A program made the position numbers and the translations under genes. This document shows positions 20,096 through 52,860 of a stretch of 64,000 nucleotides of DNA, piece after piece (the stretch's first letter is position 1; each line of letters begins with the position of its first letter). The notes beneath the pieces were generated by a model. The model was not told the origin of the DNA and searched no databases. It saw only the letters and a list, made by a program, of their open reading frames with translations. Source of the stretch: Pantanalinema sp. (GTDB lineage: Bacteria; Cyanobacteriota; Sericytochromatia; S15B-MN24; UBA4093); contig DATNQI010000062.1 of NCBI GenBank assembly GCA_036704125.1, positions 1-64,000 on the forward strand. Reading direction: 5' to 3'.

Positions 20096-20269
20096 ATGAA
20101 CCAGATGATGCGCGTGCTCAAGGAAGAAGAAGGCCAGGCCCTGACCGAGTACGGCCTCATCCTGGGCCTCATCGCGGTTGTGACCGTCGGCGCCCTCACC
20201 ATGATGGGCACCAACGTCAACAAGATGCTCTCGTCGATCGCCAACACCCTCAGCGCGACCGGCAAGTAG
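20096..20269 (+). CDS. flp: Flp-type pilin (type IVb prepilin)
   Basis: A 57-residue major pilin subunit of the Tad pilus. A short charged leader (MNQMMRVLKEEEG) ends at Gly13; the prepilin peptidase would cut there, leaving the Flp motif QALTEYGLI with Glu at +5 and the Glu-Tyr pair. A single hydrophobic helix (LILGLIAVVTVGALTMMG) follows. AAAGGA lies 8-10 nt before the ATG. It is first in the operon. No prepilin peptidase gene (tadV/cpaA) is seen in this window, so it must be elsewhere. Confidence 0.93.
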   Translation: MNQMMRVLKEEEGQALTEYGLILGLIAVVTVGALTMMGTNVNKMLSSIANTLSATGK

Positions 20270-20285
20270 AACGGGGGGGCGGAGA

Positions 20286-20672
20286 ATGCGTAACCGGAAC
20301 GAATCCGGGCAGGCGTTGGTCGAAACGGCGCTCGTCCTGCCCGTCATCCTGGCGATGATGCTCGGGATCTTCGGCTTCGGGCACCTCTTCAACGCCCAGC
20401 TCGTCATCACCAACGCCAGCCGAGAGGGCGCCCGGATCGGCGCCCTCGGGCGACCGGACACCAACATCAAGGCGGCCGTCGCCAAGTACCTGAGCGGCGC
20501 CGGCCTCAACGATCCCGGGACGGTGGTCACCATCTCCAAGGAGACGGTGGCCGACGGCCGCGACGTGAGCGTCAACGTGAGCTATCCCTTCAAGACGGCG
20601 CTGAACCTTCCGGGAGTCCCCAACCCCATCAACCTCAAGTCGACGGCCGTCATGCGCGTGGAGCAGGATTAG
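20286..20672 (+). CDS. tadE: TadE-like pseudopilin
   Basis: A 128-residue minor pilin-like protein. The N terminus RNRNESGQALVETALVLPVI has the TadE prepilin-type site (Gly before QALVE) and a hydrophobic helix, then NASREGARIGALG, the usual TadE box. The C-terminal half is a small periplasmic beta-rich domain. GGAG precedes the ATG. It lies 16 nt after flp and so is co-transcribed. Probably cleaved by the same prepilin peptidase and involved in pilus initiation. Confidence 0.85.
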   Translation: MRNRNESGQALVETALVLPVILAMMLGIFGFGHLFNAQLVITNASREGARIGALGRPDTNIKAAVAKYLSGAGLNDPGTVVTISKETVADGRDVSVNVSYPFKTALNLPGVPNPINLKSTAVMRVEQD

Positions 20673-20698
20673 AGTGCCGAACGAAACGACTCCACGAC

Positions 20699-20752
20699 CC
20701 GCCGCAAGGCGGCGGACACAGACAAATCAATCACGTTTTGTGAGGTGCTCTT
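20699..20752 (+). promoter_or_regulatory. Hairpin plus GTTTTGT/GCTCTT element, copy b
   Basis: A CCGCC-GCAA-GGCGG hairpin (GNRA tetraloop, 20699-20712) then GTTTTGTGAGGTGCTCTT (20735-20752), which contains the cpaB ribosome-binding site GAGGTG. It matches copy a (10321-10375) and copy c (43695-43738). It lies inside the operon, so it acts in RNA if real. Confidence 0.4.
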
Positions 20753-20753
20753 A

Positions 20754-21599
20754 ATGAAAAAGGCACAAAGGCTGCTGGTCGCGGTGGGCCTCGGGCTCGT
20801 CACCAGCGGCGGGATATTCGCCTACGTCTCGGGGCAAAACGAGCGCGCCAACGCCGGCGAGCCCCAGGGGCCGGTGCTGATCGTCAAGGCCCCCATCCCC
20901 CTGAGCGCCAAGATTTCCCCCGAGATGGTCGCGGTCGAGACCCGCCCCTCCAAGTTCATCCCCGAGGGGGCCCTCACGAGCCCCGAGGCGGCCGTCGGCC
21001 GCCTGGCGAGGATCGAGCTGAGCGCGGGCGAGGCCCTCGTGGAGAGCAAGCTCTTCGCGCCGGGCGAGGAGGCCCGCGCCGTCCTGCCCGTCCCCCCCGG
21101 CATGCGCGCCATCACCGTCGCGGTCGACGAGGTGGTGGGCGTGGCGGGCTTCGTCCAGCCCGGCATGAGCGTCGACGTGGTCAGCACCCTCGACGTGGAG
21201 GGGCAGACCGTCACCAAGTTCCTCCTGCAGCGCGTCAAGGTCCTCGCCTGCGCCCAGGAAGCCAAGCGAGAGGGCGACCCGGAGGCCAAGGTGGTCTCCT
21301 CGGCGACCCTCGCCGTCTCCCCGTCGGATGCCGAGAAGCTCATCCTCGCGGCCGACCGCGGCAAGATCCGCCTGGCGATGCGGGACCAGAACGAGAAGGG
21401 CGACGCCAAGACCGCGGGGGCCACCCCCGAGTCGCTGATCGGCGTCAAGCGCCCCGAGCCCGCCCCGGTCAAGGTGGCCGCCAAGCCCCGGCCTCAGGCC
21501 CCCCGGATCGTGAAGGTCATCGTGCCGGCCAAGACCCCCGCCGAGAAGCCCTCGATCATGATCATCCGGGGCACCTCGACCGAGTACGTCAACCGCTGA
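20754..21599 (+). CDS. cpaB: Flp pilus assembly protein CpaB/RcpC
   Basis: A 281-residue periplasmic protein anchored by an N-terminal helix (LLVAVGLGLVTSGGIFAYVSG). It carries a SAF-like domain (VLIVKAPIPLSAKISPEMV, VGRLARIELSAGEALVE) and the RcpC domain (GMRAITVAVDEVVGVAGFVQPGMSVDV), typical of CpaB, which works with the secretin. The ATG at 20754 is chosen because GAGGTG lies 7 nt upstream. The C terminus ends in a Pro/Lys-rich tail. It is third in the pilus operon. Confidence 0.9.
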   Translation: MKKAQRLLVAVGLGLVTSGGIFAYVSGQNERANAGEPQGPVLIVKAPIPLSAKISPEMVAVETRPSKFIPEGALTSPEAAVGRLARIELSAGEALVESKLFAPGEEARAVLPVPPGMRAITVAVDEVVGVAGFVQPGMSVDVVSTLDVEGQTVTKFLLQRVKVLACAQEAKREGDPEAKVVSSATLAVSPSDAEKLILAADRGKIRLAMRDQNEKGDAKTAGATPESLIGVKRPEPAPVKVAAKPRPQAPRIVKVIVPAKTPAEKPSIMIIRGTSTEYVNR

Positions 21600-21631
21600 G
21601 CCCCAGCTATTAAAGGAAGCGAGTTCCCCCG

Positions 21632-22864
21632 ATGAAGTCTCTGCGTTGGATTCTGGCCGCGTCGCTGGTCGTGGCGCCCGCAACCGCAGCCCTCGCCCTG
21701 GCGGACGAAACGCTGCCGGTCTCGGTCGGCAAGTCGGAGGTCGTCTCGGTCGGCGGCGAGGTCACCAAGGTGTCGGTCACCGACCCGCAGATCGCCGACG
21801 TGGCGGTCCTCTCGAAGAAGGACGTGCTGATCAACGGCAAGAAGCCCGGCACCACCAACCTGATCGTCTGGACCAAGAGCAAGCGCCTGACCTACGACGT
21901 GGTGGTGCGGGTGGACGCCGGCCTGCTCAAGGCCACCATCCGCAAGGCCACCGGGGCCAAGGACCTGCAGGTCGAGGTCGTCAACGACGCGGTGCTGCTC
22001 TACGGCAAGGTGGACCGCACCAGCCAGATCCAGATGGCCGAGAAGCTCGCCTCGGGCTTCGCCCCGCGCGTCGTCAACCTGCTCTCGGCCGACGCGGTTC
22101 AGCAGGTACAGGTGGACGTGGAGGTGGTCGAGCTCTCCAAGAACGGCGCAGGGGAGCTGGGCGTCAAGTGGGGCCAGATGAAGCGAACCTCGAGCGGCGA
22201 GGACGTCTTCGACCCCGACGTGGCCAACGTGATCCAGGGTGACGCGCGCAACCCCCGCAACGGCCAGGCCTTCTCGAACCTGGTCTCGGGCGGCGGCACC
22301 GCCTTCGGCCTCTACGAGCGCATCAACGCCAAGCTCAACCTGATGGTGCAGAACGGCTCGGCCAGGATCCTCGCCAAGCCCAACCTGGTCGCCGTCAGCG
22401 GCGGCAAGGCCGAGTTCCTCGCCGGCGGCGAGATCCCGGTGCCCACCGCCCAGCAACAGGGGCAGATCTCGTACGAGTGGAAGCCCTACGGCATCAAGCT
22501 CTCCATCGAGCCGACCGTGCTCGAGGACGGCCGCATCTCGATGAAGGTCGCCCCAGAGGTCAGCCAGCTCGACTACAACAACGCCGTGCGCCTCGCCAAC
22601 TTCGTGGTGCCCGCCGTGACCAGCCGGCGCGCCGAGACCCAGCTGGTGCTCGGCCAGGGCCAGGGCCTCGCCATCGGCGGCCTCTTGCAGAACAGCGAGT
22701 CCAAGGTCGTCGAGCAAGTTCCCATCCTTGGCAGCATCCCCATCCTCGGCGAGCTCTTCAAGTCCACCAAGTACCAGAAGAACGAGACGGAGCTTGCGAT
22801 CCTCGTGACCCCCAGGCTGGTGAGCCCCGAGTCTAAACCCCAGACGACCACCCCCACGAAGTAG
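21632..22864 (+). CDS. cpaC: Tad secretin CpaC/RcpA
   Basis: The outer-membrane secretin through which the Flp pilus passes. The 410-residue chain has a Sec signal peptide (ending near ALALA), an N-terminal pilus-assembly domain (GKSEVVSVGGEVTKVSVTDP, NLIVWTKSKRLTYDVVV), a BON-like region and a C-terminal secretin domain (GGEIPVPTAQQQGQISYEWK, KVAPEVSQLD, GLAIGGLLQN, VPILGSIPILGELFKS, ILVTPRLV). AAAGGAAG is the RBS. Its presence shows a diderm envelope. Confidence 0.94.
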   Translation: MKSLRWILAASLVVAPATAALALADETLPVSVGKSEVVSVGGEVTKVSVTDPQIADVAVLSKKDVLINGKKPGTTNLIVWTKSKRLTYDVVVRVDAGLLKATIRKATGAKDLQVEVVNDAVLLYGKVDRTSQIQMAEKLASGFAPRVVNLLSADAVQQVQVDVEVVELSKNGAGELGVKWGQMKRTSSGEDVFDPDVANVIQGDARNPRNGQAFSNLVSGGGTAFGLYERINAKLNLMVQNGSARILAKPNLVAVSGGKAEFLAGGEIPVPTAQQQGQISYEWKPYGIKLSIEPTVLEDGRISMKVAPEVSQLDYNNAVRLANFVVPAVTSRRAETQLVLGQGQGLAIGGLLQNSESKVVEQVPILGSIPILGELFKSTKYQKNETELAILVTPRLVSPESKPQTTTPTK

Positions 22865-22880
22865 AGAGGAGGCCCCCCTC

Positions 22881-23870
22881 ATGGTCACCCGGCGCAAGCA
22901 ACTTCCTGGAAAAGACCGCTCGCACGAGCGAGGCGCGACCCTCGTCACCACCGCCATCTTCGCCACCGGTCTGGTGGTCGTGGCCGGGCTGGTGGCCGAC
23001 ACCGGGGCCATGATGTACGAGCGAACCCGCATGCAGGTGGCATGCGACGCTGCGGCGCTGGCCGGGGCCAAGGGCCTCCTCAACGGACGCACCTACGCCG
23101 TCCAGCAGGCCAAGGCGGTCGCCGCCAAGAACGGCTACCAGCTCGCGGACGCCGGCATCACCATCCACCAGGGCAGCCGCATGTCGGTGGCCATGCAAAA
23201 CCCGAGCAAGTCGGTGGTGGCCCGGGTCGTCGAGGCGATGCAGGGCAGCGGCGACCCCGGTGCGGCCAAGGACCTCTCGGTGGGCGCCAAGGCCACCGCG
23301 GACCTCCACTGCGTCGAGCAGACCGCAGGGCCTCGCCCCTTCGGCATCCCCGAGTGCGACTTCGTGCCCGGCGCCGAGTACGTCCTCAAGCAGGGCCCGA
23401 GCAACCAGATCAAGGGCAACTTCCAGGCGCTCGGCATCGACGGCACCGGCGCGACCATCTACCGCCAGTCGATCCTCAACGGGGTCCGGCGCACCCTGAG
23501 GGTCGAGGACATGGTCCAGACCGAGCCCGGCAACATGGCGGGCCCGACCGTGACGGCCATCAACCAGCTCCTTGGCAACGACCAGACCAGCTATGCCGCC
23601 GCGGTCAAGGGCGCCCGCACCCCGCGCGTCATCACCGTGCCCCTCCTGTACTGGGACCAGTACCTCTCCTCGATGGGGCGCAGCAACGTGGTCGTCAAGG
23701 GTTTCGCCCGCTTCTACATCACCTACACGACCAGCCGCAGCGAGGTCTACGGCCGGTTCATCGACAGGATCGACACCAACGCGGCGAAGGGAACCGCCCT
23801 GGAGTACGCGGTGCGCCTCTCGGACGACTCGAGCGCCGCTCCTCCTCCCGTGAACCCCACCACCTTGTGA
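22881..23870 (+). CDS. tadG: TadG-like pilus-associated protein
   Basis: A 329-residue protein with the TadE/G N-terminal box HERGATLVTTAIFATGLVVVAG followed by the typical DTGAMMYERTRMQVACDAAALAGA, here used to anchor the protein by a single helix. The rest is a long periplasmic domain with two Cys in a short span (LHCVEQTAG, PECDFVPG) that may form a disulfide. It lies 16 nt after cpaC with GAGGAGG as RBS. TadG proteins link pilus and peptidoglycan in other bacteria. Confidence 0.82.
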   Translation: MVTRRKQLPGKDRSHERGATLVTTAIFATGLVVVAGLVADTGAMMYERTRMQVACDAAALAGAKGLLNGRTYAVQQAKAVAAKNGYQLADAGITIHQGSRMSVAMQNPSKSVVARVVEAMQGSGDPGAAKDLSVGAKATADLHCVEQTAGPRPFGIPECDFVPGAEYVLKQGPSNQIKGNFQALGIDGTGATIYRQSILNGVRRTLRVEDMVQTEPGNMAGPTVTAINQLLGNDQTSYAAAVKGARTPRVITVPLLYWDQYLSSMGRSNVVVKGFARFYITYTTSRSEVYGRFIDRIDTNAAKGTALEYAVRLSDDSSAAPPPVNPTTL

Positions 23871-23893
23871 TCCCCGTCTAGCAAGGAGCGATC

Positions 23894-25120
23894 ATGGCCC
23901 CCCTTCGTACCCTGCTGCTCGGCATCGACGCCCAGCGCGATCCGCTACGCCCCGCCCTCAAGGACCCGCAGCTCGCCGATCTCGTCGGCGAGGCCCCGAC
24001 CCTCGCCGAGGGGGTCGGGGCGGCGATCGCGCTGAAACCGGACCTGGTGGTGATCGCCTACATGGGCGACCTGGAGGCGACCATCCGCGGGGTCGACGGG
24101 ATCCTGGCGGCCAATCCGCTCGCCACCACGATCCTGGTGGGCGCCGTGCTCGACGCGCGCGAGCTGGGTCTCGCGATGCAGGCGGGCATCCGGGAGGTCG
24201 TCCCCGACCCCGGAGGCCTCGCCGAGGCCGTCCAGCGCGCCCACGTCTTCCTCTCTCGCCTCAGAGGCGCCCGCACCGCGAGCGAGAGCGCCCGCGCCAG
24301 GGTCGGCAAGATCATCGTCGTCCACTCGCCCAAGGGCGGCGCCGGCAAGTCCACGCTTGCGGCCAACCTCTCGCTGACGCTCGCCATGGAGGCCGCCGAC
24401 GAGGTGGCGCTGGTGGATCTCGCCCCCCAGTTCGGCGAGGTGGACCTGCTCTTCAACCTCAAGCCCCAGGCCCACTTCTCGGACATCGCGCGGCTCGGAG
24501 GCCGCGCCGAGCCCGAGACGATCGCCCAGGCCCTGATGAGCCACGCGAGCGGGCTCAAGGTGCTCGCGAGCGCCCCCACCCCCGAGGACGGAGAGCTGAT
24601 CGACCGCGCGGCGGTCGACGGGGTGCTCGGCAGGCTCAAGGAGCGCTTCGCCTTCACGGTGGTGGACACCGCCCCGGTCCTCTCCGAGCCCATCGTGCGG
24701 GCGCTCGAGCTCGCCGACCGGATCGTCGTGCCCTTCTTCCCCGATCTGGCCAGCCTGCGCCACGTGCAGCAGAGCCTCAAGCTGTGGCTCGATCTGGGCA
24801 TCGACCTGGACAAGGTGGAGCTGGTCGGTTGGAGCCAGAAGAGCGAGGTGGACGCCGAGGCGATCGCCCGCGTCCTGCGCCGGCAGCTTGCCAGCCAGTT
24901 GCCCTACGTGCCCGACGAGGCGCTCTGCGCCGTCAACGCAGGCACCCCCATGGTGGCGCTCGCGCCGAAGGGGGCCTTCGCCAAGGCCATGAAGGTCTTC
25001 GCCGCGCGCTACCTGGACAGGCCGCAGACGGCCCTGGTCGAGGTAAAGCCCGCAAGCAAGCTGAGCGAGCTCTTCGCCCGTATCCGGAGGATGATCGATG
25101 TTCCTGCGCAACCGACTTAA
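23894..25120 (+). CDS. cpaE: Pilus localisation ATPase CpaE/TadZ
   Basis: A 408-residue ParA/MinD-like protein placing the Tad machinery at the pole. Residues 1-125 resemble a receiver-like domain without clear phosphorylation site. The ATPase has a canonical deviant Walker A, SPKGGAGKSTLAANLSL (about 147), and VALVDLAPQFGEVDLLF and VVVDTAPVLSEP-type motifs. The RBS AAGGAG precedes the ATG. The 3' end overlaps cpaF by 23 bp, so the two are coupled. A paralogue with altered Walker A lies at 49044-50225. Confidence 0.9.
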   Translation: MAPLRTLLLGIDAQRDPLRPALKDPQLADLVGEAPTLAEGVGAAIALKPDLVVIAYMGDLEATIRGVDGILAANPLATTILVGAVLDARELGLAMQAGIREVVPDPGGLAEAVQRAHVFLSRLRGARTASESARARVGKIIVVHSPKGGAGKSTLAANLSLTLAMEAADEVALVDLAPQFGEVDLLFNLKPQAHFSDIARLGGRAEPETIAQALMSHASGLKVLASAPTPEDGELIDRAAVDGVLGRLKERFAFTVVDTAPVLSEPIVRALELADRIVVPFFPDLASLRHVQQSLKLWLDLGIDLDKVELVGWSQKSEVDAEAIARVLRRQLASQLPYVPDEALCAVNAGTPMVALAPKGAFAKAMKVFAARYLDRPQTALVEVKPASKLSELFARIRRMIDVPAQPT

Positions 25121-26501
25121 CCCCACGGACGCCCCGGCCGCCCTTGAGGCCCCGGCGAGCGCCCCCAAGCCGCTCGCGGCGCCCAAGAGCGTCGAGATCG
25201 CCGTGCGACCTGTGGATCCCCTCGCCGACCTCAAGAGCCGGGTGCACCGCATGCTCGTCGAGAACATGCGCCAGCAGGCCCTCGACGAGACCTCGAGCCC
25301 CGAGCGGATCAAGGAGGCCATCCGCGAGCTGCTGGAGACGGCCCTGGCCTCGCCCGAGGGGGCCGGCGCGCACCGCCTCCTGGCCCGCAGCGAGCGCGAT
25401 CGCCTCGTCGAGGAGATCTTCAACGACATGCTGGGGCTGGGGCCCCTGGAGCCCCTGCTGGGCGACGACTCCATCTCGGAGATCATGGTCAACAACCCGC
25501 GCAGGGTCTACGTGGAGCGCAGCGGCCGCATCACCAAGATCGACGTGGCCTTCTCGGACGACGCCCACCTGCTGCGCGTGATCGACCGCATCGTCTCGAA
25601 GGTGGGCCGCCGCATCGACGAGAGCTCGCCCATGTGCGACGCGCGCCTGCCGGACGGCTCTCGCGTCAACGCCATCATCCCGCCTCTGGCCATCGACGGC
25701 CCCTGCCTGACCATCCGCAAGTTCCGCAAGGACCCCCTCAAGGTCGACGCCCTGATCGACTACGGCAGCCTCACCCCCGCCATGGCCGAGTTCCTCAAGG
25801 GCTGCGTCGAGGCCCGCCTCAACGTCCTCATCTCGGGCGGGACCGGCTCGGGCAAGACGACGCTTCTCAACGTGCTCTCGGCCTTCATCCCCTACCACGA
25901 GCGCCTGATCACCATCGAGGACGCCGCCGAGCTCCAGCTCCAGCAGGACCACGTGATCCGGCTGGAGACCCGCCCGGCGAACGTGGAGGGGGCAGGCAGG
26001 GTGGACCAGTCGGAGCTGGTGAAGAACTCCTTGCGCATGCGCCCCGACCGGATCATCCTGGGCGAGGTCCGCGGCGGCGAGGCCCTCTCGATGCTGCAGG
26101 CCATGAACACCGGCCACGAGGGGTCCCTGGCCACCATCCACGCCAACTCGGCCCGCGACGCCCTCTCGCGCCTCGAGACCATGGTCCTGATGGCAGGGAT
26201 GGACCTGCCCCTGCGCGCCATCCGCGAGCAGATCGCGAGCGCCATCAACCTGATCGTCCAGATCGGCCGCGCCAGCGACGGCAGCCGCCGGGTGCTCGGG
26301 ATCTCGGAGCTGGTCGGCATGGAGGGCGACACCCTCCAGATGCAGGAGATCTACCAGTTCGCCCGCACCGGGGTGGACGAGGAGGGCCGCGTCGTCGGCG
26401 GCCACCGGCCCACGGGCATCCGCCCCAAGTGCGCCGACGCGCTCAAGCTCAAGGGCATCCCCCTGCCCGTGGAGCTCTTTCAGACGGGGAGCTGGAGCTA
26501 G
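25098..26501 (+). CDS. cpaF: Tad pilus assembly ATPase CpaF/TadA
   Basis: The hexameric secretion ATPase driving Flp pilus assembly (467 residues). Family marks are MLGLGPLEPLLGDDSISEIMVN, Walker A SGGTGSGKTTLLNVL (about 246), TIEDAAELQLQ, Walker B RMRPDRIILGEVRGGEAL and the His box GHEGSLATIHANSARDAL. It overlaps cpaE and is followed after 2 nt by tadB. It is the only such ATPase in the window, although two sets of TadB/TadC-like membrane proteins exist. Confidence 0.95.
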   Translation: MFLRNRLNPTDAPAALEAPASAPKPLAAPKSVEIAVRPVDPLADLKSRVHRMLVENMRQQALDETSSPERIKEAIRELLETALASPEGAGAHRLLARSERDRLVEEIFNDMLGLGPLEPLLGDDSISEIMVNNPRRVYVERSGRITKIDVAFSDDAHLLRVIDRIVSKVGRRIDESSPMCDARLPDGSRVNAIIPPLAIDGPCLTIRKFRKDPLKVDALIDYGSLTPAMAEFLKGCVEARLNVLISGGTGSGKTTLLNVLSAFIPYHERLITIEDAAELQLQQDHVIRLETRPANVEGAGRVDQSELVKNSLRMRPDRIILGEVRGGEALSMLQAMNTGHEGSLATIHANSARDALSRLETMVLMAGMDLPLRAIREQIASAINLIVQIGRASDGSRRVLGISELVGMEGDTLQMQEIYQFARTGVDEEGRVVGGHRPTGIRPKCADALKLKGIPLPVELFQTGSWS

Positions 26502-26503
26502 CC

Positions 26504-27439
26504 ATGATCATCTTCCTGCTCATCTTCAGCGGCGTGACCGTCGCGGCCTTCGCCTTCTCGGGGGCGCTAGCGCCGGCAGGCGAGGGGGTCGGCGCCCGCG
26601 TCGCCGAGCTCGAGGGGGCGCGCGCTCAAAGGCAGCGCGGCGGCATCCTGCGTCACCTGGGAGCGCTCGTCGAGCCCATGGTCAAGGGGCTCTCGATCAC
26701 GCGGAAGCTGGACCGGCAGCTCTACCAGGTGGGCTGGGCCTGGACCCCCAGCGAGTTCCTGAGCGCCTGCGGCCTGCTCGCGCTGGCCACCGGCGCCATC
26801 GCGGGGGTCGTCTTCGGGCAGCCGCTCGCCGCTTTGGCCGCCGGTGCCGTCGGCGCGGGGGTGCCCTTCCTCCAGCTCGCGCAGAAGCGCGGCAAGGTCA
26901 TGAAGGCGCTCAACGAGCAGCTGCCGGACGCCCTGATGCTGGTCATCAACGGCCTGCGGGCGGGCAACTCGTTCATCCAGGCGCTGCAGATCGTCTCCAA
27001 GCAGATGTCGGGCCCCATCGCCCAGGAGTTCGCCACCACCGTCTCCGAGATCAACTGGGGCCTGAGCGTCGAGACGGCCCTGTCGAACCTGGCCGAGCGC
27101 ATCGGCACGGTCGACATCGAGCTGACGGTGGCCGCCATGATCGTCCAGCGCGAGACGGGCGGCAACCTGAGCGAGATCCTCAACAACATCCACGACACCG
27201 TCCGCGATCGCATCAAGATCTCGGGCGAGGTCCAGGCCATGACCGCCCAGGGCCGCATGTCGGGCATCGTCCTGACCTGCCTGCCCGCGGGCATCGCGGC
27301 CCTGTTCTACCTGATCAGCCCCGGCTACATCAGCTCGCTGTTCACCGACCCGCGCGGCCACATGCTCATCGGGGGGGCGATCGTCTCGCAGCTCCTGGGC
27401 GTGTACTTCATCCGCAAGATCGTCGACATAAAGTATTAA
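26504..27439 (+). CDS. tadB: Tad inner-membrane protein TadB
   Basis: A 311-residue T2SSF-family platform protein. Hydrophobic segments lie at the N terminus, around residues 85-125 and at the C terminus. The central T2SSF domain has LPDALMLVINGLRAGNSFIQALQIV and VQRETGGNLSEILNNI, typical of TadB. The ATG at 26504 lies 2 nt after the cpaF stop; longer upstream frame antisense-like translation in the cpaF gene is ignored. Confidence 0.92.
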   Translation: MIIFLLIFSGVTVAAFAFSGALAPAGEGVGARVAELEGARAQRQRGGILRHLGALVEPMVKGLSITRKLDRQLYQVGWAWTPSEFLSACGLLALATGAIAGVVFGQPLAALAAGAVGAGVPFLQLAQKRGKVMKALNEQLPDALMLVINGLRAGNSFIQALQIVSKQMSGPIAQEFATTVSEINWGLSVETALSNLAERIGTVDIELTVAAMIVQRETGGNLSEILNNIHDTVRDRIKISGEVQAMTAQGRMSGIVLTCLPAGIAALFYLISPGYISSLFTDPRGHMLIGGAIVSQLLGVYFIRKIVDIKY

Positions 27440-27471
27440 CTTTACGTCAAGTACTGAAGAGGGACTTTCCC

Positions 27472-28410
27472 ATGGCTCAACCCGTCTGGACCGCCGCCGT
27501 CTCCTTTCTCGCCGTCACCGCGGCGACGCTGGTCGGCCTCTCCCTGGCCACCCCGCGCGAGCGCGCCACCCTGCGCCGGATCGACGCGATCGCGGACGCT
27601 CCCGGCGCCCCGGGGCTGCCCCGCGCGCAGCTGCTCGATCAGCCGTTCTTCAAGCGGGCGGTGCTGCCCGGCCTCGGCGCCTTCGCCGAGCTCGGATCGC
27701 GATTGACCCCCAAGAGCCAGCGCGAGCGCCTGGTCCAGCGTCTCCAGCAGGCGGGCCTCTACGGCCCCTACGCCATCCAGGCGCTCCTGGCCTTCAAGGC
27801 CTTCTTCCTGGCGGTGGCGGCGATCGCCTTCTGGCTCTTGAGCGGCTTCAACTCGGGGGCGGCGATGATGGCGGGGGCCATCATCGCCCTGGTGGGGGCC
27901 ATGGGGCCGGACCAGTGGATCACCGGCCGGATCAAGCAGCGCAAGGACGCGCTGGTGCGCTCGCTGCCCGACACCCTCGACCTGGTCACCTCCAGCGTGG
28001 AGGCGGGGTTGAGCTTCGACGGCTCGGTGCTGCGGATCGTCGGCAGGCAATCCCAGCACGGTCACGAGATCCGCGAGGAGCTCGGGCGCTACATGACCGA
28101 CGTGCGGATGGGCCGCACCCGTCCCGAGGCCCTCAACGACCTCTCGCGCCGCTGCGGGGTGAACGACCTGGAAGGGGTCGTCGCCGCCCTGATCCAGGCC
28201 GACCACCTGGGCGTGGGCGTCGGCCAGGTGCTGCGCACCCAGAGCCTCCACCTGCGCAACAAGCGCCGGCAGCGCGCCCAGGAGACCGCCATGAAGGCGC
28301 CCATCAAGATGCTCTTCCCCCTGGTGTTCTTCATCTTCCCGGCCATGTTCATCGTCACCCTGGGGCCGGCCATCCTGCGCATCATGGACACCTTCAAGAA
28401 CATGCACTGA
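27472..28410 (+). CDS. tadC: Tad inner-membrane protein TadC
   Basis: A 312-residue T2SSF platform protein paired with TadB. Helices at the N terminus, around residues 105-150 and at the C terminus (LFPLVFFIFPAMFIVTLGPA). The T2SSF core carries LPDTLDLVTSSVEAGLSFD and LIQADHLGVGVGQVLRTQS. AGAGGG is the RBS. It is the last gene of the operon and its stop is only 13 nt from the end of the convergent gene at 28424-29284; a weak 7-bp hairpin lies between. Confidence 0.92.
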   Translation: MAQPVWTAAVSFLAVTAATLVGLSLATPRERATLRRIDAIADAPGAPGLPRAQLLDQPFFKRAVLPGLGAFAELGSRLTPKSQRERLVQRLQQAGLYGPYAIQALLAFKAFFLAVAAIAFWLLSGFNSGAAMMAGAIIALVGAMGPDQWITGRIKQRKDALVRSLPDTLDLVTSSVEAGLSFDGSVLRIVGRQSQHGHEIREELGRYMTDVRMGRTRPEALNDLSRRCGVNDLEGVVAALIQADHLGVGVGQVLRTQSLHLRNKRRQRAQETAMKAPIKMLFPLVFFIFPAMFIVTLGPAILRIMDTFKNMH

Positions 28411-37237: not shown

Positions 37238-37254
37238 GCCCGTCGCTCGCTCTT

Positions 37255-37289
37255 GCCCGCCCCGGTTCCACCGGGGCGGGCGTTTTTTT
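37255..37289 (+). terminator. P4 terminator
   Basis: GCCCGCCCCGGT / ACCGGGGCGGGC (37255-37266 with 37270-37281, loop TCC) followed by GTTTTTTT. One of the clearest intrinsic terminators here. Confidence 0.95.
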
Positions 37290-37444
37290 CGGCCGAAGCC
37301 CGGTTTGTGGATGAACTGTCCAGGTAAGGAGCGAAGCAGGCAGGGAACGGTTGGCGTAGGCAGCTTTCGAAGCCGCCTGCGCCGCCGCTCCGGACGTTCC
37401 GGGGGAACGGAATGGCTGTAGGCGGGCGTTGGAAAGGACGTACC

Positions 37445-38680: not shown

Positions 38681-38690
38681 CCCTCGCCCT

Positions 38691-38737
38691 CGCCCCTCCC
38701 GCCGGCCCATCCGCCCCCGGGAGGGGCGATTGTTTTG
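38691..38737 (+). terminator. P5 terminator
   Basis: CGCCCCTCCCG (38691-38701) with 38718-38728, loop of 16 nt, followed by ATTGTTTTGG. The last T-rich bases are also the start of conserved box C. Confidence 0.7.
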
Positions 38738-38805
38738 GATTTGTTAGAAGTCCACGAAATCTTTGGTAAGTCTCGCCGAAACCCTAGGTTGATGGGTACA
38801 TTGGG
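38731..38805 (+). promoter_or_regulatory. Conserved upstream box, copy C, before P6
   Basis: TGTTTTGGATTTG ... CACGAAATCTTTGG ... TAAGTC, then TGGGTACATTG (near 38795-38805), aligned with copy B. Lies upstream of P6. Confidence 0.5.
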
Positions 38806-38914
38806 AGGGGCAACACGCCCCGACGCACTTTGATAAAGAGGGATCTGTTCCCTTGTCATAAACAGGTGTTTTGGCACAACACGTAGGCGAGTCACCCTCG
38901 CAAAAGGAGCACCT

Positions 38915-40150: not shown

Positions 40151-40177
40151 CCGCACTATTCGGCTGTTCCACCCTCG

Positions 40178-40204
40178 GCCTGCCCCCCTGCTGCGGGGGC
40201 AGGC
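40178..40204 (+). repeat. Hairpin between P6 and P7
   Basis: GCCTGCCCCC (40178-40187) pairs with 40195-40204. There is no T-tract, so partial read-through into P7 is likely. Confidence 0.5.
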
Positions 40205-40225
40205 AATGGAACGAAGGAGCTAGAG

Positions 40226-41485: not shown

Positions 41486-41539
41486 CCTTGCCGCCGGCCT
41501 CGCCGGAGCGCAGCTGAAGATTGAGAGGAGTCCATCATC

Positions 41540-45898: not shown

Positions 45899-47101
45899 TT
45901 ACGGCACGTTGAAGCGCCTCACCACGTGGTTGTCCCGCTCGGCCACGAAGAGGCCCTCGGAGGGCGTGTAGGCCAGGCCGAAGGGGGTGCGCATGGCGGC
46001 AAGGAAAGGGCTGTACCCGTCTCCCGAGTAGCCTGTCTCGCCCGTGCCCGCAAGAGTGGCGATGGTGCCGTCGGCCTTGATGGCCCGGACCCGGTGGTTG
46101 CCGCTGTCGGCGATGAAGACGCTGCCCTGGTTGTTCGCCGCGACCCCGCTCGGGAAGCTCAGCCAGGCCTCCTCGGAGGGGCCGCCGTCGCCGCCGAAGC
46201 CCGGGAGTCCGACCCCGGCGAGAGTGGTGACGATGCCGTCCGGGGCGATCTTGCGGATGCGGTGGTTGCCCATGTCGGCCACGTAGATGTTGTCCTGGGC
46301 GTCGATCGCGATGTCGCTCGGCTTGTTGAAGCGGGCCTGGAGGCGAGGCCCGTTGTCGCCCCCGAAGGCGGCCTGGCCGGTGCCCGCGTAGACCGAGACC
46401 TGCCAGCTGTGGTTGCCGTCCAGCTTGAGGATACGGTTGGCGTCCATCTCCGCCACGAAGAGGTTGCCCTGCGAGTCGATGGCCATGCCGGCGGGCCCGT
46501 CGAGCCGGGCGTCCAGGCCGGGGATGGCCTCGGCGCCGGTGACCAGCGGCTCTCTGCCGCGCCCCACGATGGTGATGAGGAAGTTGTTGATGTCGATGCA
46601 GCGGATCGCGCCGTTGCCCCGGTCCGAGAAGAAGATCAGGCCCGTGGCGTCGTCCGAGACGATCTTGTAGGGCGCGTCGAGCTGCAGGTCGCTCAGGTTG
46701 CGCCCGTCCCCGTTGAAGCCGGGCTCGCCCGTCCCCACGAAGGTGAAGAGCTGCCCGTCGTAGGTGAGCTTGCGGATGCGGTTGTTACCCGAATCCGCGA
46801 TGAGCAGGTCTCCGCGGTTGATGGCGAGGCCCGTGGGGGCGTGGAGCATGGAATCGGCCGGCACCTGGGGGTTCTCGGAGAAACCCGCCTCGCCCGTGCC
46901 GACCACGGTCTGGATGGCAAGGTCCCGATCGCCCGCGAGCGGGGTCGGCGTGGGGGCCGGGGTCGCGCCCGGCCGCAGGGTGGGGGAAGCGACGAGGGGT
47001 TGCCTGGCGAGCGGCCGCGCCGGGCTCGCGGGGCCGCTCGCCGAGCAGGCCGCGAGGGCGAAGGCGAGAAGAGGCAGCAGGCGTCTTGTGTCGCCGAGCA
47101 C
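45899..47101 (-). CDS. NHL-repeat lipoprotein, second copy
   Basis: A 400-residue exported beta-propeller-like lipoprotein. The signal peptide ends in ALAAC; a Pro/Thr-rich spacer (PTLRPGATPAPTPTPLAG) follows. Repeats of about 55 residues carry the NHL pattern, for example GLAINRGDLLIADSGNNRIRK, PSDIAIDAQDNIYVADMGNHRIRK, SGVAANNQGSVFIADSGNHRVR and FGLAYTPSEGLFVAERDNHVVR, alternating with VVGTGEAGF-type strands. The GTG at 47101 is preferred because GAGGTG lies 6 nt upstream; a GTG at 47110 overlaps the upstream stop. It is the second gene of a two-gene unit. Substrate or partner is unknown. Confidence 0.8.
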   Translation of the reverse strand: MLGDTRRLLPLLAFALAACSASGPASPARPLARQPLVASPTLRPGATPAPTPTPLAGDRDLAIQTVVGTGEAGFSENPQVPADSMLHAPTGLAINRGDLLIADSGNNRIRKLTYDGQLFTFVGTGEPGFNGDGRNLSDLQLDAPYKIVSDDATGLIFFSDRGNGAIRCIDINNFLITIVGRGREPLVTGAEAIPGLDARLDGPAGMAIDSQGNLFVAEMDANRILKLDGNHSWQVSVYAGTGQAAFGGDNGPRLQARFNKPSDIAIDAQDNIYVADMGNHRIRKIAPDGIVTTLAGVGLPGFGGDGGPSEEAWLSFPSGVAANNQGSVFIADSGNHRVRAIKADGTIATLAGTGETGYSGDGYSPFLAAMRTPFGLAYTPSEGLFVAERDNHVVRRFNVP

Positions 47102-47106
47102 GGGGC

Positions 47107-48231
47107 TCACCTCAGGATGCGAATGCGCGCGTTGTCGATGTCCGCGACGACGATGGCGCCGTCGGGAGAAAGCGCGATGTCTCCCGGGCGCCGGAACTGG
47201 ACGGCCCCCGTGCCGTCGGCGAAGCCGGGCCAGTTGTTGCCCGCCACGGTGCGGATGCGGCCGTCCTGGCCGATCTCGCGGACCGAGTGGTTGTAGGTGT
47301 CGGCGACGAGCACCCGGCCCGACGCGTCGGCCGCGAGGCCCATGGGGAAGTTGAGGCGCGAGTGGGCCGCGTCGCCGTCGGTGTAGCCCAGGATCCCGTT
47401 GCCCGCGATGGTCTTGACCGTCCGATCCGGGGCGATCCTCCTGATGCGCAGGTTCCCGAAGTCGGCCACGTAGAGGTTGCCCGCCCCGTCGAAGGCGAGC
47501 TTGCGCGGCAGGTTGAAGTAGGCCCGGGTGCCCGGGCCGTCGGCGAAGCCCCGGCCCTCGTTGCCCGCGTAGCGCGTCACGACGCCCTGGGGGGTCACCC
47601 TGTCGATCCAGTAGGTGCTGGACAGGTAGAGGTTGGAGGAGGCGTCGATCGCGATGCCGAAGAGCTCGACGGGATCGTAGGGGCTGCCGTCGGGGTTCCT
47701 GAGCGAGAGGGTCGAGACCTGGCCGGCGGGCGAGACCCTGCGCACGGCGTCGAAGTCGGCGACGTACAGGTCGCCGTTCGGGGCGATCGCGGCGTCCTTG
47801 GGGCCCATGAACTGGGCCTGCCTTCCCAGCCCGTCGGCACGCCCCGGCTGATCGCTCAGGCCCCCCGCCAGGGTCGAGACCTGGCCGCCGGGGGTGATCT
47901 TGCGGATCCGGTAGGCGTAGGGCTCCGTCACGTAGAGGGTGCCGTCCGAGGCCACGCACAGCCCTTCCGGGGCCGCGAAGGTGGCGCCGGCGCCCGCCCC
48001 GTCCTCTCCCCCCTGCACCCCGGTGCCGGCGAGGGTCGAGGCCACGACGTTGGCGCGGGCCTGCTCGATGGAGGGCGCGGCCGAGACCTCGCCGGGGGTG
48101 TACTCGGCGGTCACCTCGTGGGGGATGTCGTCGGGCCCGGGGCCGGTGGTGCCCGCGGGGCCCCCGCCGCCGCAAGCGGCCAGGGCAAGGGCCATGCTGC
48201 CGGCCAGGGCCGTGCGGATCCAGGTCTTCAT
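47107..48231 (-). CDS. NHL-repeat lipoprotein, first copy
   Basis: A 374-residue beta-propeller-like lipoprotein. Signal peptide ends in lipobox ALAAC followed by a GGGG linker. NHL repeats include EGLCVASDGTLYVTEPYAYRIRK, KDAAIAPNGDLYVADFDAVRR, RKLAFDGAGNLYVADFGNLRIRR, MGLAADASGRVLVADTYNHSVRE and GDIALSPDGAIVVADIDNARIR. Its stop codon is within a few bases of the next gene's start, so they are co-translated. The two proteins are paralogues. AGGAGGGACGGC just before the ATG provides the RBS. Confidence 0.82.
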   Translation of the reverse strand: MKTWIRTALAGSMALALAACGGGGPAGTTGPGPDDIPHEVTAEYTPGEVSAAPSIEQARANVVASTLAGTGVQGGEDGAGAGATFAAPEGLCVASDGTLYVTEPYAYRIRKITPGGQVSTLAGGLSDQPGRADGLGRQAQFMGPKDAAIAPNGDLYVADFDAVRRVSPAGQVSTLSLRNPDGSPYDPVELFGIAIDASSNLYLSSTYWIDRVTPQGVVTRYAGNEGRGFADGPGTRAYFNLPRKLAFDGAGNLYVADFGNLRIRRIAPDRTVKTIAGNGILGYTDGDAAHSRLNFPMGLAADASGRVLVADTYNHSVREIGQDGRIRTVAGNNWPGFADGTGAVQFRRPGDIALSPDGAIVVADIDNARIRILR

Positions 48232-48465: not shown

Positions 48466-49047
48466 ATGGGCATGACCCCTTTCAGATTCGCGATCGCTGT
48501 TTGCTGCGGCTTGGCCGCATCGAGCGTGCTGTACGTCTCGCAGAAGGCGGACGGCAGCACCCTCGCCGAGGTCGCACCCGCAAGCATCCAGACATCCAGC
48601 CCCAGCGCGGGCGTCGCGGCGGCCCCACCCCATCCGGCCCTCGCGGCGAGCGCCTCGCTCGCCAGCACCCCCCCGCTCACCGCGAGCGTCTCGGCGGTGC
48701 CAAAGCCTGCTCCTCAGCCCCCGGCGACCCGCTCGGCCGCCGTCAGGCCGCTGCCTGCCGCGAGCGCGAGCCACCCCGCTCCCCCCAATCCCACCGCCGC
48801 CGCGAAGCCCCCCCTCGGCCCGAAGGCCGTACCCGCAAAGGCACCGACCGCCGCACTCGCCCCACCCGAGGCCACCACCCGGCAAGCGGCGAAGCACGCG
48901 CCTGGCAAGCAAGCCGAGCCGGTGCCCAAGCGCATCATCATCCGTCACTCGCAGCCCGGGGACGTGGTCTTCACCATGCAAGGCGAGGAGCTCCAGGTCG
49001 AGTTCCGCCAGGCCCCGTCGCCCAAACGCCAAGGAGGCCGCTCATGA
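48466..49047 (+). CDS. Small membrane-anchored Ala/Pro-rich protein heading the second Tad set
   Basis: A 193-residue protein with one N-terminal helix (FRFAIAVCCGLAASSVLYVS), a 110-residue Ala/Pro linker and a conserved-looking basic C terminus (KRIIIRHSQPGDVVFTMQG, EELQVEFRQ). It occupies the position cpaB has in the first operon and has a similar topology, but no SAF domain is visible, so it is not called CpaB. ATG 48466 has AGGAGG 8 nt upstream. Its stop overlaps the next start (ATGA), showing co-translation with the TadZ-like gene. Confidence 0.6.
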   Translation: MGMTPFRFAIAVCCGLAASSVLYVSQKADGSTLAEVAPASIQTSSPSAGVAAAPPHPALAASASLASTPPLTASVSAVPKPAPQPPATRSAAVRPLPAASASHPAPPNPTAAAKPPLGPKAVPAKAPTAALAPPEATTRQAAKHAPGKQAEPVPKRIIIRHSQPGDVVFTMQGEELQVEFRQAPSPKRQGGRS

Positions 49048-50225
49048 CCAAGCCCCTGCGCACGCTGCTCATCGCCGACGACGGCACCCGGGACCGCCAC
49101 CGGACGGACATCCGCGGCCTCGAGGGCTGCGACCTGATCGGCGAGGTCCACGAGGGCGAGGCGGGGATCCACTTCGCCTCGCTGTGCCAGCCCGACCTGG
49201 TCCTGGTCGGAATGAGCGACCAGACCCTCGACACCGCGCGCAGGCTCCAGGCGGTCGCGCCCTGGGCCCGGCTGGTGGCCCTCGGCACCCCCGAGGACGA
49301 GGGGGGCCGGCTCGCCCTGATGCAGGCCGGGGTGAGCGACTTCGTGAGCACGAGCGAGCGCGCCTCGCTCATCCAGCTCCTCGAGCGGCTCGCCGCCCCC
49401 GACACCGTCCCCGATGGGCTGAACGACGGTGCGACCCCGGGCAAGATCATCACCTGCTACGGCCCCAAGGGGGGCGCGGGCCGCTCGACCCTCGCGGTCA
49501 ACCTCGCGATCGCCCTCTTCCGCACCACCGGCCGCGAGACCCTCCTGGTGGACGGCGCCCTCCACCACGGCGACCTGGACCTCTTCCTCAACCTCCAGCC
49601 CCAGCAGGGGATCGCCTCGGTGCTCGCGGGCAGCCGCCTCGAGGGGGCGCTCTGCCCCCATCCGAGCGGCATCAAGCTGCTGGGGTGGACCAAGGGCGAT
49701 CACGACCAATCCCCCGACAAGCTGCGCAGCCTCCTGCACCTGCTGCGCCAGCGCGACGCCTGGGTGGTGGTGGATACCCACCCGGCCCTGCGCGAGGTCA
49801 ACCGCACCATCCTCGAGCTGAGCGATCGCGTCTACCTGCCCATGTTCCTCGACATCGCGCACATCCGCAGCATCCAGCGGGATCTGGCCCTGTGGCGCGA
49901 GGAGCGCCTCGACACCGCCCGCTTCGAGCTGGTCGCCTGGGGCGAGAAGAGCGACGTGAGCCGCCAGGAAGCCGGCAAGATCCTGCGGCGCGGCATCGAC
50001 CTTGCGCTCCACGCCGACCCCGTGAGCGCCCGCAGCGCCATCAACCAGGGCGTCCCCGTGCTCCAGGCCGATCCGCGCGGCGCGCTGGCCCGGGACCTGG
50101 ATCGCATGATCACCGCCTTCACCGAGCCGCAGACGCGGGCGCTGGTCCAGCTCAAGCCCGCCAACCCCTTCGAGCAGTTCGTCGCCTGGTTCAAGAAGGG
50201 CCCCGCCACCGGTTTCGGGGCCTAG
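49044..50225 (+). CDS. TadZ/CpaE-like ATPase with Arg in the Walker A motif
   Basis: A 393-residue paralogue of the CpaE at 23894-25120. An N-terminal receiver-like domain (LRTLLIADDGTRDRHRTDI) is followed by the ParA/MinD-like domain. The Walker A reads YGPKGGAGRSTLAVNLAIA (about 141): the P-loop Lys next to Ser is Arg, while the signature Lys is kept. VVVDTHPALREVN and PMFLDIAHIRSIQRDL match the CpaE counterpart. Such changes are known among TadZ proteins and may mean weak or no ATP hydrolysis. Start overlaps the preceding stop. Confidence 0.8.
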   Translation: MTKPLRTLLIADDGTRDRHRTDIRGLEGCDLIGEVHEGEAGIHFASLCQPDLVLVGMSDQTLDTARRLQAVAPWARLVALGTPEDEGGRLALMQAGVSDFVSTSERASLIQLLERLAAPDTVPDGLNDGATPGKIITCYGPKGGAGRSTLAVNLAIALFRTTGRETLLVDGALHHGDLDLFLNLQPQQGIASVLAGSRLEGALCPHPSGIKLLGWTKGDHDQSPDKLRSLLHLLRQRDAWVVVDTHPALREVNRTILELSDRVYLPMFLDIAHIRSIQRDLALWREERLDTARFELVAWGEKSDVSRQEAGKILRRGIDLALHADPVSARSAINQGVPVLQADPRGALARDLDRMITAFTEPQTRALVQLKPANPFEQFVAWFKKGPATGFGA

Positions 50226-50228
50226 CCC

Positions 50229-51113
50229 ATGCGGTACCTCCTCGCCTTCTTCGGCGCCACGATCCTCTCGCTCATCGCTCTCTGGTTCGTGCCCCACCGC
50301 GGCGCGCTCCTGGTCCGCTCGCGGCTGGGGGCCCTCGAGGCGACGGGGCCGGGCCTGGTCCCCCTCGACTCGCCCCAGACCCGCAAGGTGCAGGAGCGGC
50401 GGCGCGCCAAGGCGAAGCGCAAAGAGCGCCTGCGCATGCGCACCCGCTACCTGCGCCTCGGCGTGCCGGTGCTCGCCCTCGTCGGCGCCCTGGGCGTCTC
50501 GGCCTGGGCATGGGGCTCGCTGCGTGCGTTCGCCGCTGGCGCCCTGGTCTTGGCCTGGATGCTGGGAGCCGGCTGGCTCAGGCGCCGGATGCGCCTGAGC
50601 CAGGTCGCGCGCCAGATGCCCGCCGCCCTCTGGATCATGGCGACCCACCTGCGCGACACCAACTCCTTCTTCGGGGCCATCGAGGCCGTCTCGCAGCAGG
50701 CCCCGCGCGGCATCGCCCGGGAGTTCGCCGGGATCCACGCGGCGATCGCGAGCGGCGAGACCGAAGAGCGGGCCTTCTCCCGCTTCGCCCGGCGCAACCC
50801 GGTGCCCGAGGCCGAGATGGTCGCCTCGAGCCTCTCGGTCCCCCAGGAGCGCGGGCAGCGCCTCGCCGTGGCGCTCTTCAACGTCCACGAGGTGCTGGCG
50901 AACCGCCACCGGACCCGGCTGGCGGCCGGGCGAGTCGAGCGATCGGTGCGCCTGTTGGCCTGGGTCCTGGTGGTGCCGGTGGCGGTGGTCGCCCTCGAGC
51001 CCCTGGCGCGGCCCGATGGGTTCACCCTCCTGAAGGTCGTGATCCTCGGCCTGTTCTGCGCGGGGACTCTCGCCATCAACCGCGTGTGCGTCGGCCTCGG
51101 GCAGGGCGGGTAA
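50229..51113 (+). CDS. TadB-like T2SSF inner-membrane protein, second set
   Basis: A 294-residue platform-type protein. N-terminal helix (LLAFFGATILSLIALWFV), two helices around residues 75-115, and a T2SSF-like region (MPAALWIMATHLRDTNSFFGAIEAVSQQ, SLSVPQERGQRLAVALFNVHE) then two C-terminal helices. It is weaker in match than TadB of the first operon. The start is 3 nt after the TadZ-like stop, no clear RBS. Confidence 0.72.
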   Translation: MRYLLAFFGATILSLIALWFVPHRGALLVRSRLGALEATGPGLVPLDSPQTRKVQERRRAKAKRKERLRMRTRYLRLGVPVLALVGALGVSAWAWGSLRAFAAGALVLAWMLGAGWLRRRMRLSQVARQMPAALWIMATHLRDTNSFFGAIEAVSQQAPRGIAREFAGIHAAIASGETEERAFSRFARRNPVPEAEMVASSLSVPQERGQRLAVALFNVHEVLANRHRTRLAAGRVERSVRLLAWVLVVPVAVVALEPLARPDGFTLLKVVILGLFCAGTLAINRVCVGLGQGG

Positions 51114-51117
51114 GACC

Positions 51118-51963
51118 ATGGAGGTGCAAGCCATGCTGGCCATCGTGCTCACGGTCCTCTCGCTGGCAGGAGGCGGCGCGGCGCTCGCCTTCGAGCGCGC
51201 CCTGCGTCGCCGGCGCGTGGTCGCCAGGCGCCTGGGGCTCCTGGAGGAAGACGCCGATCTCGCCGGGCGCACCGGGCGCCTGACGCTCATCGTCGGCTGG
51301 CTCTCGGAGACCTTCGAGCCACGCAAGATCTGGCGCGGCATGGCGCGGACCGCGCGCCGCTCGCTGGGGGTCACCCTCCTGATGGCCGCCCTGGCCGCCA
51401 CCCTCGGGATCGGCTACGGCTGGTGGCTCACGGACCGCTCAGGCACCACCTGGGGCGTGGTCGGCGGCGCCTCGCTGGCGCTTCTGGGCTGGTACCTCCT
51501 GGGCGGCTACCTGGAGGGGCGCAGCCAGCGCCGCAAGGAGTCCATCGCCTGGTCGGTGCCCGCCCTCCTTGACCGGATCGCGTGCCTGGTGGAGGTCGGC
51601 GTCGGCTTCGAGTCGGCCCTGGGCACCGTGGTGCGCGACAAGGGCCCGGGCCATCGCATCCTCAAGACCGAGCTGTTCCGTTACCTGCAGGAGACCCGCC
51701 TCGGCCACAGCCGACAAGAGGCGCTGGTGGCGCTCGCCCAGCGCTGCGACGTGAGCGAGCTTCACCGGATGGTCGGGGCCGTGCTCGCCTCGCGCGACGA
51801 TGCGGCCGCCCTGCGCGCGCAGCTTCGCGAGTGCGCCCTCGCGCTCCAGGCCGAGTGGCTCGAGAAGAAGCGCGCGCGCGCCAGGCGCGCCATCACCCTC
51901 ATGCTCGGGATCATCGTGACGTGCTTCGGCCCGCTGATGGCGATCGCCCTGGGAGCCAGGTGA
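51118..51963 (+). CDS. TadC-like T2SSF inner-membrane protein, second set
   Basis: A 281-residue platform-type protein. Helices at the N terminus (AIVLTVLSLAGGGAALAF), around residues 75-120, and at the C terminus (ITLMLGIIVTCFGPLMAIAL). The T2SSF core has VPALLDRIACLVEVGVGFESAL and LYLQETRLGHSRQEAL-like sequence and AVLASRDDAAALRAQLRECA, paralleling TadC (LPDTLDLVTSSVEAGLSFDGSV). It is last in the set; no secretion ATPase, secretin or pilin gene is near. Confidence 0.75.
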   Translation: MEVQAMLAIVLTVLSLAGGGAALAFERALRRRRVVARRLGLLEEDADLAGRTGRLTLIVGWLSETFEPRKIWRGMARTARRSLGVTLLMAALAATLGIGYGWWLTDRSGTTWGVVGGASLALLGWYLLGGYLEGRSQRRKESIAWSVPALLDRIACLVEVGVGFESALGTVVRDKGPGHRILKTELFRYLQETRLGHSRQEALVALAQRCDVSELHRMVGAVLASRDDAAALRAQLRECALALQAEWLEKKRARARRAITLMLGIIVTCFGPLMAIALGAR

Positions 51964-52092
51964 GCCTTCCGGGGGGATGGGCCCGGAGATAGAATAGCCG
52001 GCACTTCGAACGCACCTCGAATCAAGGCGCGAAGCGCACCAGGCCCTTGGCGCGGCCGCTCCGGCAAACGTCATGCCAGTATTGGGGGTAGC

Positions 52093-52335
52093 ATGCAAAT
52101 CGATCGCGTGATCATCGAGCGGGAGGACCGAACGAGCTTCTGCGGGGTGCTGAGCTACCTCCACGCGGACAGGCACCAGATGCTCACGTGGAGCTTCGAG
52201 CGCACGCCCGACAACAAGGTCGTCCTGCTGCTGTTCCCGTCGAGCTCCAGCGGCCACTACCCCGAGGTCCAGACCCACTACCGCGAGCTGGCCGACGCCA
52301 TCCTCGACGCCATCCTGCACGCCGCCTCGAGGTGA
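52093..52335 (+). CDS. Small hypothetical protein
   Basis: An 80-residue soluble acidic protein not recognised. It begins MQIDRVIIEREDRTSFCGVL and has a beta-rich middle (HQMLTWSFERTPDNKVVLLL) and a helical end (THYRELADAILDAILHAA). A GGGGGT stretch before the ATG at 52093 may act as RBS. It is convergent with the MshEN-like gene; only 4 nt separate the stops. Its codon use resembles neighbouring real genes. Confidence 0.6.
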   Translation: MQIDRVIIEREDRTSFCGVLSYLHADRHQMLTWSFERTPDNKVVLLLFPSSSSGHYPEVQTHYRELADAILDAILHAASR

Positions 52336-52339
52336 CGCC

Positions 52340-52777
52340 CTACTTCCCTTCCTGGGCCGAGAGCGCGCGGTAGATCTGCGCCTCGGTGCAGGCCCCCAGA
52401 TCGATCAGCACCGGGGCGAGGCGATCGCCCGTGCGCTCCTGGGTCTCGAGCGCCGTCCCGATCTGCTCGATGGACACCAGCCCGAGCTTCATCAGGGTGT
52501 CGCACAGCTTGACGTCCTGGTACTGGTCCTCGAGCGTGCCCTTCAGCTGCGGGAAGGAGATGAAGCCCAGGCCGAGCAGGATCTCGCCGATCCTGAGGTA
52601 GGGGCTCGTCGCCTGGAGGCTGAGGGCCTCGTCGAGCTGGCGGGCGTCGATGATCCGCCGGGCGATGAGCAGGGCGCCGAAGTGAAGGGTCTCGATCGGC
52701 AAGCGCCGCCGCAGCGGCGACACCGGCACGACGGCATGCTCGGTGGCCGGGACGGATGGGCTCGACGGGTTGTTCAC
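52340..52777 (-). CDS. Protein with two MshEN/GspE-N-like helical repeats
   Basis: A 145-residue soluble protein. It contains two similar halves: FGALLIARRIIDARQLDEAL...RIGEILLGLGFISFPQL and CDTLMKLGLVSIEQIGTAL...RLAPVLIDLGACTEAQIYRAL. This L-x-x-x-G-x-I/L-D-x-x-Q-L pattern is that of the N-terminal domain of GspE/PilB/MshE ATPases, which can bind c-di-GMP. Here no ATPase part follows. The GTG at 52777 follows GGAGG; an earlier ATG at 52834 is poor. A TATAAT -10 is on the minus strand at 52823-52828. It lies beside the ATPase-less Tad set, which may not be chance. Confidence 0.62.
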   Translation of the reverse strand: MNNPSSPSVPATEHAVVPVSPLRRRLPIETLHFGALLIARRIIDARQLDEALSLQATSPYLRIGEILLGLGFISFPQLKGTLEDQYQDVKLCDTLMKLGLVSIEQIGTALETQERTGDRLAPVLIDLGACTEAQIYRALSAQEGK

Positions 52778-52822
52778 GGGGCCTCCTCGACGCAGGGTCC
52801 GAATACGATCAGATCGCTGGCT

Positions 52823-52828
52823 ATTATA
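52823..52828 (-). promoter_or_regulatory. -10 of the MshEN-like gene
   Basis: TATAAT on the minus strand, 46 nt before the GTG start. No convincing -35. Confidence 0.45.
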
Positions 52829-52833
52829 CGGCA

Positions 52834-52860
52834 AGTGGCGGCGCTTTTGGCGCCGCCACT
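52834..52860. terminator. Terminator of the Mla/MCE operon
   Basis: AGTGGCGGCGC (52834-52844) with 52850-52860, loop TTTTG, 29 nt beyond the MlaD stop on the minus strand. No strong T-tract. Confidence 0.6.

Follow-up and report, generated by a model that had tools for sequence, protein, structure and literature searches.

Gene organisation at the locus

The window, by which we mean the whole stretch of 64,000 nucleotides analysed, is contig C62 of a 3.5-Mb assembly in 102 contigs (G000) from an uncultured relative of cyanobacteria of the class Sericytochromatia. Four tightly packed genes in the order small-TadZ-TadB-TadC occupy positions 48466-51963 of the forward strand. The first (48466..49047, +), which has the Shine-Dalgarno sequence AGGAGG, encodes a small single-pass membrane protein of 193 aa and shares a 4-base ATGA overlap with the gene for the TadZ-like protein TadZ2 (49044..50225, +; 393 aa). 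A gap of 3 nt separates TadZ2 from the TadB-like TadB2 (50229..51113, +; 294 aa), and a gap of 4 nt separates TadB2 from the TadC-like TadC2 (51118..51963, +; 281 aa). Both platform-type proteins score above the curated Pfam cut-off for T2SSF (PF00482, 25.2 bits), TadB2 with 29.6 bits and TadC2 with 37.1 bits; TadZ2 exceeds the cut-off for AAA_31 (30.3 bits, cut-off 27) and stays below that for TadZ_N (20.5 bits, cut-off 26.4). Pfam, the trees and the structural model place TadZ and the paired TadB/TadC platform proteins of the Tad system in the set. The open reading frames and Pfam thus bear out the sequence-only reading, which had described TadZ-, TadB- and TadC-like genes following a small Ala/Pro-rich membrane protein with overlapping or nearly touching ends.

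The small protein has one transmembrane helix (residues 6-24) at its N-terminus, followed by a variable Ala/Pro-rich linker (17% Pro and 22% Ala for the whole protein) and a conserved C-terminal motif, RIIIRHSQPGDVVFTMQGEELQVEF. A profile of the C-terminal part (A8) matches the window genome, G001 and G007 with E values no worse than about 1e-22. It finds nothing convincing outside these three in 386 genomes of the phylum, and the weak matches elsewhere (E 3e-4 to 6e-3) are taken as chance. The small protein occurs only together with the set, and by these searches it is a new gene specific to it. The idea that it is a shrunken CpaB draws on an N-terminal similarity to CpaB that beats shuffles in most comparisons; the window copy reaches 38, as compared to 37 and 36 for unrelated signal-peptide-like N-termini of the window, and the G001 copy reaches 47.

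On the downstream side, an orphan MshEN-type protein resembling c-di-GMP-binding proteins (52340..52834, −; NF053729, 88.8 bits) is convergent to the set and not part of it. It had been put forward as a possible regulator or adaptor. Its best relatives are located away from the set, on other contigs (G001:C24 and G002:C101), and such orphan MshEN-type proteins belong to a large family of paralogues spread across the class, with 11 further matches in the window genome. The adaptor role was therefore rejected and a regulatory one is not supported. Two NHL-repeat (beta-propeller) proteins (45899-48231) are divergent to the set, and the same arrangement is found in G001. Further upstream, between operon 1 of the tad genes and the set, an array at 32663-43027 encodes six to seven related secreted proteins, each about 410-500 aa long; their N-terminus is like MKTTWLTRALTLGLTAG, followed by TKTMNGPTTKSPEARDG, and the array has no match on the syntenic stretch of G001.

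Location of the motor, pilin and secretin genes

Neither CpaF nor a secretin, Flp or TadE is found near the four genes, as had been claimed, and profile searches confirm the absence of the first three. On the contig of the window, matches to PF00437, PF00263 and Flp are confined to a complete tad operon (operon 1; 20117..28410, +) about 20 kb upstream of the set. This operon encodes Flp (20117-20248), TadE (20286-20672), CpaB (20754-21599), CpaC (21632-22864), Tad/TadG (22881-23870), TadZ1 (23894-25120), CpaF (25098-26501), TadB1 (26504-27439) and TadC1 (27472-28410), all on the forward strand. A search of the whole genome with PF00437 locates the CpaF/TadA motor ATPase in operon 1 and on contig C72 only, and none within the locus of the set. 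The second CpaF (C72:42-1304) lies inside another tad operon, so operon 1 is not the sole possible source of a CpaF partner for the set. Because the contig ends within the C72 operon, TadB and TadC of that operon are outside the visible sequence. Five tandem Flp-type pilin genes (L089, C72 8888-14408) adjoin this second CpaF/TadZ/CpaC/CpaB operon; PF04964 matches in the genome are limited to 20117-20248 and C72, and none falls in the locus of the set. The secretin CpaC/RcpA is likewise missing from the locus, with PF00263 matches elsewhere in G000, G001 and G007. No CpaF is found beside the set in G001, nor along the set-bearing 10-kb stretch of G007:C140.

Occurrence in related genomes

A search of related genomes for the same reduced cluster, proposed as a check by the sequence-only reading, recovers it in three genomes from two families of the order, all many-contig assemblies: the window genome, G001 (Ca. 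Sericytochromatia bacterium S15B-MN24 CBMW_12, same family) and G007 (another family). The gene order and the overlapping or nearly touching ends are common to the recurring sets. In G001 a complete operon 1 and the orthologous reduced set are located on one contig, about 17 kb apart, and the set adjoins orthologous NHL-repeat genes as in the window. In G007 the set lies on contig C140 and has no neighbours in common with the other loci; the contig end cuts the small gene, leaving its C-terminal part only, TadZ2 lacks the N-terminal domain, and TadB2 and TadC2 are fused into one 462-aa open reading frame with the Pfam T2SSF match in the TadC half. This fusion suggests that TadB2 and TadC2 act together. 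No additional gene is common to all three loci.

A complete second tad operon in this place in close relatives would have marked the set as a remnant. None is found in the relatives that carry the set; the nearest ones carry the same reduced form. Profile and BLAST searches did not find the set in other members of the class (18 genomes in all, some fragmentary), and a scan of GTDB 220 for TadZ2 returned a true orthologue in CBMW_12 only. Other TadB/TadC loci of the class without CpaF in the examined stretch (e.g., L053, L057, and L058) were rejected as orthologues, their best matches being TadB and TadC of canonical operons. Tad operons with a CpaF of their own are likewise present in every set-bearing genome. 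Since tad genes occur in every member of the order examined, the co-occurrence of the set with a Tad pilus is uninformative.

TadB2 and TadC2

Conserved positions were counted in a single MAFFT alignment for each family, containing 26-29 canonical rows, mostly from this class and Chloroflexota. At least 75% of these positions are retained in intact canonical rows (one canonical row with a broken TadB is lower). TadB2 keeps 10-14 of 34 (12 in the window copy) and TadC2 12-20 of 41 (20 in the window copy). The hallmark platform residues of Tad systems are lost. The GGN motif of TadB is replaced by GQ[RA] in all three TadB2 proteins, the second glycine having become glutamine (GQR in the window), and the region preceding the C-terminal transmembrane helices of TadB is also lost. 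The window and G001 have lost the K/P/FP/P motif of the C-terminal transmembrane helix of TadC, with one phenylalanine kept in the window; G007 has mostly lost it and keeps two prolines. TadB2 of G001 ends ahead of the last two transmembrane helices, and as these are not found in another frame, a deletion seems to explain the shortening better than a frameshift would. A model of the Caulobacter machine has the C-terminal helices of both platform proteins as the shaft that holds the pilus (PMC12019362).

In quick trees with long branches for TadB2 and TadC2, the path between the window genome and G001 is about five times longer for TadB2 than for TadB1 (2.79 versus 0.51) and about 2.4 times longer for TadC2 than for TadC1 (1.59 versus 0.67). 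The structural models derive from shallow alignments and have mean pLDDT values of 65-71, and therefore only their cytoplasmic domains were used. The AF2 model of TadB2 matches the cytoplasmic domain of EpsF/OutF (prob 1.00, TMt about 0.75); as modelled, the cytoplasmic six-helix T2SSF fold is kept in TadB2. The model of TadC2 is all-helical (mean pLDDT 71).

TadZ2 and selection on the set

TadZ2 consists of a receiver-like N-terminal region and a ParA/MinD-type domain. It keeps 19-20 of 21 conserved TadZ positions across the three genomes (19 in the window copy). In the TadZ tree the three TadZ2 proteins form one clade (SH-aLRT 99) within the operon-1-type TadZ of this lineage (94), and the path between the window genome and G001 is 1.12 for both TadZ2 and TadZ1. 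By these measures TadZ2 is as constrained as TadZ1. From the position of the clade inside operon-1-type TadZ, duplication of such an operon is the probable origin of the set.

The P-loop of the window TadZ2 reads PKGGAGRS, with the P-loop lysine changed to arginine and the signature lysine kept. The P-loop lysine is absent in all three TadZ2 proteins (GR, GR, and GC). An argument for a pseudo-ATPase was dropped, because the same loss is ordinary in the family: only 12 of 79 TadZ-like loci across phyla, mostly from Chloroflexota, keep the lysine, and CpaF is nearby in 67 of 80. In the loci L092-L170, mainly from Chloroflexota and mostly CpaF-bearing, the lysine is usually replaced by cysteine or threonine (KGGTGCT). 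CBMW_12 shows complementary P-loop losses (L040 9829-11100, L039 8973-10112): the signature lysine is missing from TadZ1 (PRGGCGKS) and the P-loop lysine from TadZ2 (AKGGSGRS).

Between the window and G001, pN is lower than pS in all four genes (0.37-0.43 versus 0.54-0.61), at amino acid identities of 41-45%. The pN/pS ratio is 0.69 for TadZ2 and 0.65 for TadZ1, and 0.71-0.73 for TadB2/TadC2 as compared to 0.50-0.51 for TadB1/TadC1; with synonymous sites near saturation, these ratios are rough, and they support constraint that would be weaker on the platform genes. The open reading frames are intact, with no frameshifts or stops; TadB2 of G001, however, is truncated.

Discussion

The set resembles the Tad/type IVc pilus of Caulobacter (Cpa) and Aggregatibacter (Tad) in its TadZ, TadB and TadC homologues in operon order and in the cytoplasmic T2SSF fold. 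It differs in having no CpaF ATPase, secretin, Flp, TadE or CpaB with SAF/RcpC domains and in the loss of the platform hallmarks. The likely minimal machinery has been given as CpaF, TadB and TadC (PMC11300603). Split tad clusters are reported to be rare; the examples are Kil clusters 1 and 2 of Myxococcus (PMC8460266) and flp-2 with Locus 3 of Sinorhizobium meliloti (PMC10934763), where Tad parts are likewise spread over more than one locus per genome. In those genomes each locus supplies parts that the other lacks; here operon 1 already holds the full gene content, and the second set only duplicates TadZ, TadB and TadC. In the open-licence literature we found no description of a conserved TadZ-TadB-TadC set accompanying a complete operon. 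Denise et al. (PMC6668835) attribute TadB and TadC to a fission; the G007 fusion restores a protein with two T2SSF domains, as in GspF/PilC, joined here in the order TadB-TadC.

The set gives the impression of an old pilus component adapted to a different task, and not of a second pilus, working or decaying. Lacking a motor, pilin, secretin and the shaft motifs, it probably builds no pilus itself. We suggest, tentatively and as the leading candidate among several, that it is a motor-less membrane module derived from a Tad system, a partial tad operon copy that has diverged and is maintained by selection, which has no pilus of its own; its most likely role is to position or modulate the complete Tad machine of the same cell. 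We prefer this role because TadZ proteins serve to position Tad machines and because a complete Tad system is both the source of the set and its companion in the genome. Both the assembly of the four products into a single complex and its action on the resident Tad pilus are inferred. TadB2 and TadC2 would provide a platform-like core, to which TadZ2 would bind as the cytoplasmic positioning protein; the small protein would cross the inner membrane, its conserved C-terminal strand reaching into the periplasm. Such a complex, lacking a motor, a pilin and an outer-membrane channel, might compete for TadZ1, CpaF or pilins, or dock them. The fast evolution of the set and the truncated TadB2 of G001 count against this reading, as they would also fit slow decay.

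That the set is instead an alternative platform, borrowing CpaF (from operon 1 or C72), Flp and secretin to make a second kind of pilus or to switch the direction of the motor, seems doubtful to us and less likely than a motor-less module. The fold retained in the TadB2 model and the presence of two CpaF genes would suit borrowing, and part-sharing between split tad clusters is known from Myxococcus Kil (PMC8460266) and has been proposed for Sinorhizobium (PMC10934763). However, the GGN motif, the region before the C-terminal helices of TadB and the K/P/FP/P motif of TadC are lost, G001 TadB2 has none of the C-terminal helices at all, and operon 1 needs no completion of the kind seen in known split clusters. 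Of the two options raised by the sequence-only reading, a different membrane machine fits better than the sharing of the operon 1 CpaF, which is possible but weaker, because TadB2 and TadC2 have lost residues that canonical platforms keep.

We also consider improbable an independent machine with no connection to pili, such as a polar scaffold or a transport-coupled device, either ATP-independent or driven by an unknown partner. The strong divergence of the platform proteins beside a conserved TadZ2 and the dedicated new single-pass protein speak for it. SpoIIIAB is a solo T2SSF-like protein with a role outside pili and offers a precedent, matching the fold of TadB2 (E 0.09, prob 1.00). Its gene context differs, with no sporulation genes seen at the set; moreover, the three loci share no further gene and nothing points to a substrate. 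Still less probable is a slowly decaying remnant of a duplicated tad operon: the missing core genes, the fast-evolving TadB2 and TadC2, the truncated TadB2 in G001, the lost N-terminal domain of TadZ2 in G007 and the failure to find the set in other members of the order would agree with decay, but the intact, tightly coupled reading frames with pN below pS at such low identity, a TadZ2 as constrained as TadZ1 and a set-specific gene with a conserved motif argue against it.

Returning to the motor-less module, a more specific version, in which it represents an undescribed class that controls the resident Tad pilus, possibly via TadZ1-TadZ2 heterodimers, we regard as unlikely; the heterodimer idea draws on the complementary P-loop lysine losses in CBMW_12. 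A single ATPase serves both the extension and the retraction of Tad pili, and what switches direction or positions the machine is still open; one account leaves room for an unknown regulatory element (PMC12019362). A conserved motor-less set of paralogous platform proteins and TadZ is a concrete candidate for a Tad regulator. If the set is unrelated to pili, it would be a case of platform proteins reused without a motor.
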